From Nitrospiraceae bacterium (GTDB lineage: Bacteria > Nitrospirota > Nitrospiria > Nitrospirales > Nitrospiraceae): DNA of 54,918 bases. The DNA lies in assembly GCA_919902505.1 (NCBI GenBank), contig CAKKRE010000005.1:1-54918 (forward strand), in the 5' to 3' direction. Shown piece by piece: positions 758 to 6,200 of the stretch (positions within the stretch are counted from its first letter, which is position 1; each line of letters begins with the position of its first letter). The notes beneath the pieces are model-generated. The model was not told the DNA's origin. It searched no databases and saw only the letters and a program-made list of their open reading frames with translations. The position numbers and the translations under genes were made by a program.

Positions 758-1828
758 GTGTCAGACTACCGGGACTTTCTGAAAGACCTCCTTCTTGAAG
801 ATTACCGCTACCGTGCCGAGGCATTGCGCAGGAGTGAACAGGCTGGGGAAACGCGGGTCAATATTTTCATGGGACTCGTTAGCGTGGTGGCAGCATCGTT
901 GGTTGCGCTCAGCAATGCGCAGCATGGTCCTGATCCAAGCTCTCTTCGATTAATCATCGAATGTGTGACGATCTTGCTCACTGTGGTGGGCTGGCTGACG
1001 CTCATGCGGCTGCTCATCCGTAACGATCACACCGACGAATGCAAGCGAGATTTAGATCGCATTCGTCAGGTGTTTAAGGAGCAATTCGATCGGGATGGGC
1101 GCTTAGTCGATTACTTTCCGGTAGGAGCACTGAAGCAGTCTTCAAACGTGAGCAGCCGTAGGTTCGGCGGGCTCGCGCATCTGATGGCTGGACTGAATAG
1201 TCTACTGGTGGGCGTGGTAATACTTCTTGTCTCCTTGCCCGTAGGACCTTCGGGGAAAGCTGAGATTGCTTCGAGTGAACTGCTGCGTCCGTCTATTGGC
1301 GCCATCACAGTCGCTATCGTTGCATTTTTGCTGCAGAGCGCCTACGTGGGGCGTAGAGAACGATCGCGCAAGCGTGAATGGCGCCTGTTGATGCCGACTC
1401 ACACCGGCGGTGTTGTGTGTAAGCATGAAAACGGAGAACTGCACTATCTCATTATTTCTGCCAAAGATGCCAAGGGGAACATCTGGGTGTTTCCGAAAGG
1501 GCATATCGAGGAAGGCGAAGGCGAATCAGCGGCTGCACTGCGTGAAGTAGCCGAGGAGACGGGTGTGGCAGCCCAGGTTCTTTTTCCTCTCGGAGAGATC
1601 ACTTTTCCTGCTGAAGGTAAGGGGAGGGAGGGCCTTCAGCGTGCGAAGTTTTATTTGATGCGCTGGTTGTTCGATGTGCCGACTGCGATCACACGCGAAC
1701 ACCGTACGCTCCAGTGGTTGCCCCTTGATCAGGCGCTCCAACAGCTGACATTCCCCGAATCAAAACGGTTGTTGCTCGTTGCGCATGCCGCAAACCTCCA
1801 AGAAGGCCTTAGCGCCAGGGTATCCTGA
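758..1828 (+). CDS. Membrane-anchored Nudix hydrolase
   Basis: This is a 356-residue protein with two parts. The N-terminal ~200 residues start with a charged helix and hold two pairs of hydrophobic segments (around VNIFMGLVSVVAASLVAL, IIECVTILLTVVGWLTL, AGLNSLLVGVVILLVSL and ITVAIVAFLLQSAYV), so probably four membrane helices. The C-terminal ~150 residues are a Nudix domain with a complete Nudix box, G-x5-E-x7-REVAEETGV, within GHIEEGEGESAAALREVAEE. Nudix enzymes cleave nucleoside diphosphates linked to another group; the substrate cannot be read from sequence. I chose GTG 758 because AAGGAT lies 8 nt upstream; TTG 725 lies in the same frame without such a site. It is a single gene between unrelated neighbours. 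The catalytic domain should face the cytosol, tethered to the membrane. Confidence 0.82.
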   Translation: MSDYRDFLKDLLLEDYRYRAEALRRSEQAGETRVNIFMGLVSVVAASLVALSNAQHGPDPSSLRLIIECVTILLTVVGWLTLMRLLIRNDHTDECKRDLDRIRQVFKEQFDRDGRLVDYFPVGALKQSSNVSSRRFGGLAHLMAGLNSLLVGVVILLVSLPVGPSGKAEIASSELLRPSIGAITVAIVAFLLQSAYVGRRERSRKREWRLLMPTHTGGVVCKHENGELHYLIISAKDAKGNIWVFPKGHIEEGEGESAAALREVAEETGVAAQVLFPLGEITFPAEGKGREGLQRAKFYLMRWLFDVPTAITREHRTLQWLPLDQALQQLTFPESKRLLLVAHAANLQEGLSARVS

Positions 1829-2246: not shown

Positions 2247-3098
2247 ATGATGGGGTGTCTGATCCAGGCAGAGTATCGAATGATTACCAACGACCCTGAG
2301 GAATCGCGAGGGACTCGACGAAAAGCGATGAAGGAGACCTTGCCCCAACGCAAATCCTGGCCTCTCGAAATCTATATGCTCGGACATTGTGAAATACGAG
2401 TCGAAGGGGTGGCTCTTCTCAAGCGACGAAAGACGCCGCACCGGCTGCTTGAACTCCTGCAGGTCATTGTCGCATCGGGGGGCGCGGCTGTACCGGTGTC
2501 GTACCTTATCGATCAGCTCTGGCCGGAGAGCGATGGCGATCGAGCCGTGGCGACGTTTTCGAAGACACTCAAGCGCCTGCGCAAATATCTCGCGGTTGAG
2601 CGGGTTATTCATCTCGAACATGGCCCGGTGACGTTGGATTCGACGCGCTGTTGGGTTGATGTGTGCGCCTTTGAACAAGGCGTCGCTCGATCGGAGCATT
2701 TGATCTCTAGTGTGCCTCTGAAGGGATGGATGCAGGAGCTTCAGCAGGCGTTGGCGCTCTATCACGGTCCCTTCCTACTCGATCAACGGTTGAAACCTTG
2801 GGCGGTTGCGATCCGGGAACGGCTCCGCGAATGTTTCGTCAAGGGCGTGGCGAGACTCAGCGATCACTGGCAGAGGCTGGGTCGGCTTGAGCAGGCGATT
2901 CAATGGTTGAATCGGGGCCTCCAGGTGGACCCTCATGCTGCGCCGCTTTATGGACCGCTCATCACACTGCTTTCGGCGACGGGCCGAAAAACAGAGGCCG
3001 CCGTCGTCTATCACCAATGCGCTCGTGTGTTCGTGAAGGAATTGGGACGCCCGATCCCCCAGGCCGTCCAGCATCTGTACAAGAATGTACTCAGCTGA
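2247..3098 (+). CDS. Winged-helix/BTAD (SARP-like) transcriptional regulator
   Basis: The 283-residue product has an OmpR/SARP-like winged-helix domain from about residue 40 (LEIYMLGHCEIRVEG) to about 130, with the recognition-helix region FSKTLKRLRKYL. A bacterial transcriptional activator domain (BTAD, TPR-like helices) fills most of the rest, with typical elements such as ALYHGPFL and the TPR-like GRLEQAIQWLNRGLQVDP. No ATPase domain is attached, so it is a stand-alone regulator. In known SARPs the first domain binds direct repeats near the -35 region and recruits RNA polymerase. The start is uncertain: ATG 2247, 2280 and 2328 all lie in frame and none has a good ribosome site. Placed directly upstream of the giant surface-protein gene, it is the natural candidate for its regulator. 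Confidence 0.8.
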   Translation: MMGCLIQAEYRMITNDPEESRGTRRKAMKETLPQRKSWPLEIYMLGHCEIRVEGVALLKRRKTPHRLLELLQVIVASGGAAVPVSYLIDQLWPESDGDRAVATFSKTLKRLRKYLAVERVIHLEHGPVTLDSTRCWVDVCAFEQGVARSEHLISSVPLKGWMQELQQALALYHGPFLLDQRLKPWAVAIRERLRECFVKGVARLSDHWQRLGRLEQAIQWLNRGLQVDPHAAPLYGPLITLLSATGRKTEAAVVYHQCARVFVKELGRPIPQAVQHLYKNVLS

Positions 3099-3218: not shown

Positions 3219-6200
3219 ATGCGTGACGCGCTGTTTTTCAGCAAGCTGCGAGTGCTGCTGTGTGGATGGAGATGGAAACATCACCGCCGGGCCTCGTGGC
3301 TGAAGGCGCGTCTTCGACACCTGCGTCATCGCCTGCAACAGTCATCGCGCACAATCACGCTGAAGACGGCACCGCCTCGGTCGTCACCATTTCTGTTGGA
3401 GCCGCTGGAAGCGCGCCTCCTGCTCGCGGCCGATCTCACCGGTGTGGTGCAGTCCGCGGCCTTGATCGATCCCGCCGTGCCGACCAACAGCGCGAGCGCC
3501 GTCGTGCAAGTGCAGAACATCGGCAATCAGCGCGTCAATCAATCGCAGGTCGGCGTCTACGCCTCCCTCGACAGCGTGCTCGATAGTTCCGACCTCCTGC
3601 TCGGCACCGCGAACACCGACCGAGTCAATGCCGGCGCTTCCAAGAATGTCACGGTGAACCTGACGCTGTCGAGTACCCTCAACCCCGTGCCGTACACATT
3701 GCTGTCGAAGTTCGACAATGCCAATGCGATTACCGAGAGCAGCGAGAGCAACAACGTTGCGATCGGCGGCACGATCAACGGGACGTGGAAATTCGGCGCA
3801 GTCCCGGGCCGAGCCGGCAATACCACGCTCACCCTGAGCGACGCCGATGGCACGCGCGTCACGTTCAGCCTCAGCGGACCCGGCACCGGCGAAGTGATCA
3901 AGGATGGCAGCACATGGGATGTGAAGATCACCGGCACGACCGCGAGTTCCGTCGTGACCATCCTGACGAATAGCGGCGGCAACGGCCGCGTGACCCTCAA
4001 CGACGTGCATGTGTTTGGCCCGCTCTCGACCTTCTTGGCTGCGACGACGGATCTCACCGGCACACTCGCCATCGATGGACCGGTGAATATTCCCGGCCTG
4101 CTGCCTGGCACGATCACTCTGGGGAGCATTCAGGGCGGCACCATTGCGGTGCCCTCGGTTGAAGCCCTCACGATCCTGGGCTCGACGACCAACGCGAAGA
4201 TCTATGTCGGCGCCACGCTGGGCCAAGACGGCCAACCGGGGGGCACCGGCGCCAACGCCGACATGTATGGAGCTGGAAGCATCGGCCTCTTCACCGTCAC
4301 CGGGGCGATGAGCGGGACATCGGTTCGCGTGGGGATTGACCCGGTCGACGGCGCCTACAGCAACGGCAACGACACCCTGATCGGGGGTACCAGCAGCTCG
4401 ATCGGCGGCATCGTCATCGGCGGCGCGCTCAGCGCCGACACCCGCTTCTACGCCGGTCGTTTTCCGACACAGTACCTCAATGGCTTGACTCTGAAGCCCA
4501 CCGCGGGGGACGTCCACTTCGTCAGCAACTTCAGTGGCCCGGCCTTGACCGCGAGCTTGCAGCAAGACACGGGGAGTTCCGCCAGCGATCAGCTCACGAG
4601 CAATCCGGCCATCACCGGCAGCCTGACCGATCCGCAAGGGATCGCGACGTTCCTGGCCGGCTTCGGCGCGACGCCCACCGTCAATGTGCTCAGCGACCGG
4701 CAGCCCGACGGCTCCTTTAGCTTCACACAAGTCCGACTCGAACAAATAAACGGAGCGCCGCTGACCGACGGCACCTATGTCTTAAAACTCCAGGCAACGG
4801 ATACCGCGGGCAACAGCACACAAATCAGCGTGCCCTTCACGCTGGATACTCAGGTGTCTGTGCTCACGTTCGATCTGGCCGCCGCATCCGATACGGCGCC
4901 GCTCGGCGATCAACAGACGACGAATGATGTCGTCACGTTGATTGGGCAGACCGAAGCGCTCGCGACGGTACACTTGCTTGAAACCGGCGCGACCACGCAG
5001 GCCGATGCGAGCGGCAATTTCAGCTTCACGAACGTCGCGCTCAATCTGGGTGCCAACACCTTCACCGTCCGCGCGACCGATGCCGCGGGCAACCAGCGGA
5101 CGGAATCGCGGACAATCACGCGGGTAGCGGCCGGCAACAACGCGCCGGTGCTGAACGCGATCGGCCCGCAGACCGTGAACGAAGGGGCAACCCTAACTTT
5201 CACGGCGACGGCGAGCGATCCTAATGCCGGGCAGACAGTGACATTCAGCCTGGAGAATGGCGCGACGGGCCAAGTCCCAGTCGGGGCGAGCATCGATCCT
5301 GTGACCGGGGCCTTCACCTGGACGCCGACGGAGGCGCAAGGGCCGGGCACCTTCACCTTCGATGTGGTAGTAACCGACACCGGCAGCCCGAATCTAACCG
5401 ACCGCGAAACCATCACGGTCACAGTGAATGAGGTGAACCTTGCGCCGGTGGTGACGGCGGTGGCGGATCAGACGCTCGACGAAGGCACAACGTTAGCACT
5501 GACCCTGACAGCGACGGATACTGATTTGCCAGCAAACCAACTCACGTGGAGCCTCACGACCGCGCCAGCCGGGGCGAGTATCGATCTGGTCACCGGCGTC
5601 TTGACCTGGACCCCGACCGAGGCCCAAGGCCCCGGCAGCTACAGCATCACGGCGCGGGCGACAGACAACGGGAGCCCGATATTGTTTGGCGAGACGACCT
5701 TTACGGTGACGGTCAACGAAGTCAATCTGGTGCCGGTGCTAACGGTGCCGGTGGCGGTGAGCGGGGATGAACAGACTCTGCTGACGTTCGCGGCGACGGC
5801 GACGGATGCCGACCTGCTGGCCAATCAGCTGACGTTCAGCTTGCAGGGGACAGTGCCGGCCGGGGCCAGCATCGACCCGACCACCGGCGCGTTCACCTGG
5901 ACCCCGACGGAGACGCAAGGGCCGGGGACCTACAACGTCACGGTCCGAGTGACCGACAACGGGAGTCCCAGCCTGTTCAGCGAGCAGGCGGTGCAGCTGA
6001 CTGTCAATGAAGTGAACCTCGCGCCGACGCTCGCGGCGATTCCAACCCAGACCGTGACGGCGGGCCAGCTGCTCACGTTCACCGCGGTCAGCAGCGATGC
6101 GGATCTGCCGGCCAACACGCTGACCTATGGTCTGCAAGGCACGATCCCGACTGGCGCGAGCATTGATCCGTCCACCGGCGTGTTCACCTGGATCCCGACT

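Follow-up and report, generated by a model that had tools for sequence, protein, structure and literature searches.

The window analysed here, a stretch of 54,918 nucleotides taken as a whole, carries near its start a gene (positions 758 to 1,828; this gene, its parts, its probable ribosome-binding site and the neighbouring genes at 55 to 498 and 2,247 to 3,098 lie on the forward strand) for a protein of 356 amino acids, in which about 205 residues with four predicted membrane helices are followed by a Nudix domain with an intact Nudix box. We propose that this protein is a catalytically active pyrophosphohydrolase, that its Nudix part falls with the Ap4A/Ap6A hydrolases and MutT1, and that a rare module of four helices holds it against the cytoplasmic membrane on the inner side; we see the chances of this reading as evenly balanced. 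An earlier note on this DNA had described a Nudix enzyme that a four-helix domain attaches to the membrane, and the layout is confirmed by four hydropathy segments and a Pfam NUDIX match; the intact box, which the note put after some 200 residues, lies at residues 248 to 270.

The fusion gene and its locus

The open reading frame starts with GTG at 758 and ends with a stop codon at 1,826 to 1,828; the mechanical list of open reading frames puts the start of this frame at TTG 725. Just 5' of the GTG, a purine-rich GGAAGGA (744 to 750, read directly) is a probable ribosome-binding site. Upstream lies the 3' end of an uncharacterised gene (55 to 498; the protein has 462 residues in genome G110), and between the two genes there is a strong hairpin (523 to 559; -27.2 kcal/mol, z -4.45), whose pattern is matched nowhere else in the window, which is followed by no clear T run and which is perhaps a terminator or a regulatory element.

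The same fusion occurs in G110, a genome of the same genus, with 58% identity over the aligned part; there the gene is split over two contigs, and its pieces were compared separately. Between the window and G110, dN/dS is 0.157 for the Nudix part and 0.341 for the membrane part covered and, to judge from these ratios, purifying selection acts on both parts. The neighbours are kept as well: the uncharacterised protein upstream, and a BTAD-type regulator (2,247 to 3,098) and a giant Ig-repeat protein downstream. The position of the gene near the contig start might suggest a chimera or a read-through artefact, but given the same fusion and conserved neighbours in G110, together with selection on both halves, we regard this as very improbable; the fusion is genuine.

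Other features of this locus deserve mention. The region at 3,219 to 25,631 encodes the Ig-repeat protein (3577 aa), then GAF-HlyD, HlyD-like, SecA-like, HlyD and outer-membrane efflux proteins, an arrangement that suggests a locus for secretion of the giant protein. In G110 (L070, 1945-9630), a row of BTAD-type regulators stands upstream of the fusion gene, at least one of them fused to an ATPase-like part. When window and G110 are compared, the fusion gene (758 to 1,825) has a dS of 1.28, which is near saturation, and the flanking BTAD gene (2,247 to 3,095) one of 0.48, so that simple vertical descent of the fusion gene is not assured; the gap hints at its replacement or transfer. Another genome, G066, has the regulator and the giant protein, but the 17-kb stretch taken from it gave no match to the fusion gene or to the uncharacterised gene upstream of it; the rest of that genome gave no match to the upstream gene or to the membrane module. 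With this one locus lacking both genes, and two of 29 genus genomes holding both, the pair may be gained or lost as a unit.

The Nudix domain and its relatives

The Nudix domain spans residues 223 to 334 (1,424 to 1,759) and is recognised by PF00293 (E=8.8e-15; 55.3 bits, gathering cut-off 21.1) and by fold matches. Its box, GHIEEGEGESAAALREVAEETGV (1,499 to 1,567, read directly), is an exact fit to GX5EX7REUXEEXGU, and the box is also intact in G110, in two alignment rows of a second membrane-attached type described below, and in G429. When solved relatives are ranked by sequence, the first six are Ap4A or Ap6A hydrolases, followed by MutT1; the best matches are the Ap4A hydrolase 3i7u (1.3e-13), the human Ap4A hydrolase and Ndx1. 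The fold matches of the predicted model agree, with Ndx1 (Z 20.2), 3i7u (Z 19.9) and MutT1 (Z 19.4) at the top and yeast DDP1 further down (Z about 16), while in a viral fold library phage and viral Nudix proteins rank top. MutT1 is also the best NCBIfam match of the window, G110 and C46 proteins (49.7-55 bits, cut-off 475); the window protein itself, at 49.7 bits, stays far below the equivalog cut-off of the MutT1 family (NF052459).

From sequence and model, we are fairly sure that the Nudix part belongs to the Ap4A/Ap6A-hydrolase and MutT1 group. The substrate is less sure: the nearest relatives are ApnA hydrolases and MutT1, but the X-loop tyrosine, which stacks on adenine and according to Srouji 2017 marks ApnA hydrolases, does not recur in the aligned column. 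That column, whose exact position is uncertain, has Y in soluble relatives of the family and F, F, L and W in four membrane-attached rows; phmmer places the human tyrosine region differently from the alignment.

How unusual is it for such a domain to be attached to a membrane? At a hydropathy threshold of 1.6, at least two predicted membrane helices precede the box in four of 33 Nudix-box reading frames, drawn from the genome itself and from family-search loci, which makes the fusion unusual. The 33 frames come from 37 loci, once the duplicate L006, the Nudix-less L015, and L004 and L005, in which no box was recognised, are taken out. The phylum search added 28 loci, these being the best matches listed, and among them one more case, L096 of G429, in a check that set aside the long frames of G355, G406, G319:C41 and G273:C16.

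A second type of membrane-attached protein, here called type 2, joins another membrane module to a related Nudix domain. It occurs in G000:C46 (L041:8916-10151, reverse strand), G073 (L071:8413-9549, reverse strand) and G429 (L123:8604-9821, forward strand). In all three genomes a TcA-like (Tc-toxin-like) gene adjoins the type-2 gene, with an overlap of about 70 nt or a gap of 30 nt between the frames. The other side is occupied by a TcdB/RHS-type gene in G000 and G073, and by a GH46 gene in G429; the TcA-like gene is in two overlapping frames in G000 and in one in G073. By BLASTP, the module of the window protein and that of C46 show no similarity (E 4.9).

In a tree of 36 rows (what is left of 39 after the long rows L001, L003 and L086 are dropped), the membrane-attached Nudix domains form a single clade with support 99/97, or 70/97 with the long rows kept. 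The larger trees, of 67 and 64 rows, break this single clade up: in them the window type is joined by two soluble proteins, L095 and L113 (support 94/73 with 64 rows). A clade of seven, made of five membrane-attached and two soluble Nudix domains, has support of 100/96 with 64 rows and 84/78 with 67 rows. By these larger trees, either membrane modules were acquired two or more times in this lineage, or the soluble relatives have lost one. In both genomes that carry them, which are of one genus, L095 and L113 (loci L124 and L125) stand beside a polyphosphate kinase and a response-regulator/histidine-kinase pair, a link that is a feature of these soluble relatives and not of the window gene. As background, mutT1 and ppk1 are neighbours in M. 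tuberculosis; a literature search on that neighbourhood listed no paper holding ppk1. The window genome has, in addition, a separate Ap4A-like Nudix protein without predicted helices (the C16 row), which is widespread in the genus.

The membrane module

By hydropathy, the four membrane helices are predicted at residues 34-52 (857 to 913), 65-83 (950 to 1,006), 142-160 (1,181 to 1,237) and 180-198 (1,295 to 1,351); in the model they fall in helices 2-53, 60-113, 137-158 and 172-211, the last running on continuously towards the Nudix domain. The loop between helices 2 and 3 (residues 84-141) is charged, and the positive charges favour a location of both the loop and the Nudix domain on the inside. 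The charged, putatively cytosolic segment HTDECKRDLDRIRQVFKEQF (residues 91-110; 1,028 to 1,087) lies within the best conserved part of the module, since residues 84-122 are 77% identical between the window and G110, whereas helices 3-4 reach 54% and the module as a whole 57%. The earlier note had suggested a membrane-bound substrate or a signal read at the membrane, and this idea is supported in part: a charged loop that is the best conserved piece of the module would fit a regulatory role there.

The structural picture comes from a second AlphaFold2 model (mean pLDDT 78.4, pTM 0.54), fairly confident in its Nudix fold and built on an alignment of 15 rows (A7) in which three rows, one of them partial, cover the membrane part; the first model, from three rows, was poor (53.4). 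In the second model, long helices reach from the membrane to the cytosol, the fourth of them continuing directly into the enzyme domain. The rows of a whole-model fold search are Nudix proteins, with no non-Nudix row for the membrane part among the matches listed, and the low-confidence model gave no fold match at E<=0.001; the module may nonetheless have a known fold.

A family search with the N-terminal part, which had been proposed as a check, returned no accepted Pfam, NCBIfam or PADLOC family. Kinship with 8xMP (PF24838) was considered and rejected: the score is 19.7 bits against a cut-off of 30, and profile comparison gives no support (hhalign probability 1.5% against a hand-made set of six 8xMP-like proteins). 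Sub-threshold 8xMP matches appear in three of the four family members.

The possibility that the module is a common envelope domain is contradicted by its rarity, as it was found in only three of 29 genomes of the genus. In two phylum searches of the same size it occurs in two of 395 genomes, among which G110, presumably not drawn, gives no row. This count sets aside two matches judged to be chance: one in G133 (E 0.0067), a 135-residue frame with one N-terminal hydrophobic stretch, and one in G165 (E 0.0016), a frame with two stops. Searches of plasmids and phages, with E allowed to reach 1, gave no match to the module, and viral contigs no confirmed one; in genome contigs the single-protein query found none and the A3 query one. 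One of the three copies in the genus, that of G069, stands without Nudix on a contig that also carries an IS21-type element. Because the first common start codon of its 207-residue frame comes at about residue 50 (L015:1591), inside helix 1, this copy may be a relic, and as evidence for a stand-alone function of the module it is weak.

Proposed function, alternatives and known systems

What might this protein do? It is probably made and catalytically active, with the Nudix domain facing the cytosol, where it would hydrolyse nucleotide pyrophosphates at the inner face of the membrane; the nucleotides cleaved may be dinucleoside polyphosphates or related compounds. The charged loop that joins helices 2 and 3 and is so well conserved, together with helix 4, which leads into the enzyme, may pass the state of the membrane, or of the assembly, on to enzyme activity. 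A bolder idea, which we regard as a long shot, is that a single Nudix lineage, linked to polyphosphate metabolism when soluble, forms membrane-bound switches for nucleotide alarmones on at least two unrelated modules in this bacterial family; the Nudix domain of the window and a new membrane protein of four helices would then control each other's opening or activity in one direction or the other, as a bacterial enzyme-channel.

The main rival to a coupled enzyme holds that the module is a plain anchor or a relic, and that the Nudix domain does nucleotide housekeeping, clearing 8-oxo-(d)GTP or ApnA with no signal from the membrane. We consider it improbable, if far from negligible. It would suit the best NCBIfam match, MutT1 (far under its cut-off), the faster evolution of the membrane part compared with the Nudix part, the different membrane module of the related lineage, and the lack of an ordinary start in the stand-alone module of G069; yet a helix-less Ap4A-like Nudix, widespread in the genus, is already in the genome, and the cytosolic loop of the module is more conserved than helices 3-4. 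Could the substrate itself be bound to the membrane? A lipid-linked pyrophosphate, or polyphosphate from a membrane-associated polyphosphate kinase, would account for the tethering. The polyphosphate kinase next to the nearest soluble relatives points the same way, as does the presence among the fold matches of DDP1, a Nudix enzyme active on polyphosphate (PMC8064635). However, that paper argues that the MutT1 type, to which the Nudix part here is closer, is without the phosphate-anchoring residues for long polyphosphate, and the fold matches listed include no Nudix enzyme for lipid pyrophosphates; such a substrate seems unlikely.

Quite unlikely, too, is that the Nudix domain is a ligand sensor which opens or closes a four-helix channel or pore, as in TRPM2 or in nucleotide-triggered defence. 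The modelled helices running from membrane to cytosol, with the fourth passing directly into the Nudix domain, would be apt for this; the gene is patchy in the genus, as accessory systems are (the module being in three of 29 genomes); and Nudix and SLATT parts are named in conflict systems in an eLife paper of 2020 (PMC7159879). Against it stand the intact catalytic box and a membrane part without any SLATT or defence match. The related suggestion of the earlier note, a 2TM effector-like domain as in nucleotide-based defence, did not hold: there are four helices, every SLATT family stays below its cut-off (only SLATT_fungal scores, 13.0 bits against 26.5), and the only PADLOC match, PDC-S07, lies on the Nudix part. 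Since no SLATT or PADLOC match lies outside that part, we rejected a defence effector as lacking support. Nor was a cyclase, TIR or other defence gene recognised among the scanned neighbours, in a window that starts near the gene; PADLOC gave a single match there, a TPR model (PDLC01171) that hits the BTAD regulator weakly, at 25.8 bits, and Pfam reads this regulator as an ordinary BTAD protein.

Returning to the membrane-held pyrophosphohydrolase, its interest lies in the signals it may handle, as alarmones of the nucleotide kind, Ap4A among them, are broken down by Nudix enzymes (PMC10148737). Membrane-tied Nudix enzymes with different modules in one lineage would make the reading or destruction of alarmones at the bacterial membrane a testable matter; if the module proves a mere anchor, what is left is a small architectural curiosity. 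Literature searches for membrane-bound Nudix enzymes and relatives found no described relative among the papers listed, and the word transmembrane is absent from the main text of Srouji 2017. The nearest characterised enzymes are soluble, and the fusion departs from a well-known family in an unusual, though modest, way.

The Ap4A/Ap6A hydrolases (Aquifex aq_158, 3i7u; Thermus Ndx1, 1vc8; human NUDT2, 3u53) have the Nudix fold, the intact box and the PKG(H/N) motif in common with the fusion protein; unlike it, the solved ones have 126-155 residues, with no space for a membrane module, and their X-loop tyrosine is replaced in the fusion protein, as far as the uncertain column allows. Mycobacterial MutT1 (Rv2985, 5gg5, 9cxx) resembles the fusion as its best NCBIfam match and in fold (Z 19), but its additional domain is C-terminal and bears an RHG motif, where the fusion has an N-terminal membrane module instead. 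With 8xMP, the window module shares a long N-terminal helix, a helix pair and a cytosolic helix. The type-2 proteins, like the window fusion, have predicted membrane helices first and then a Nudix domain, one related to that of the window, on a module that, for the C46 protein compared, has no detectable likeness to that of the window, and they adjoin Tc-toxin-like genes. TRPM2 is an animal six-helix channel with a NUDT9-homology, ADP-ribose-type Nudix domain C-terminal to the membrane part. It is like the fusion in having a Nudix domain behind a membrane part, with six helices in the channel and four in the protein of the window.
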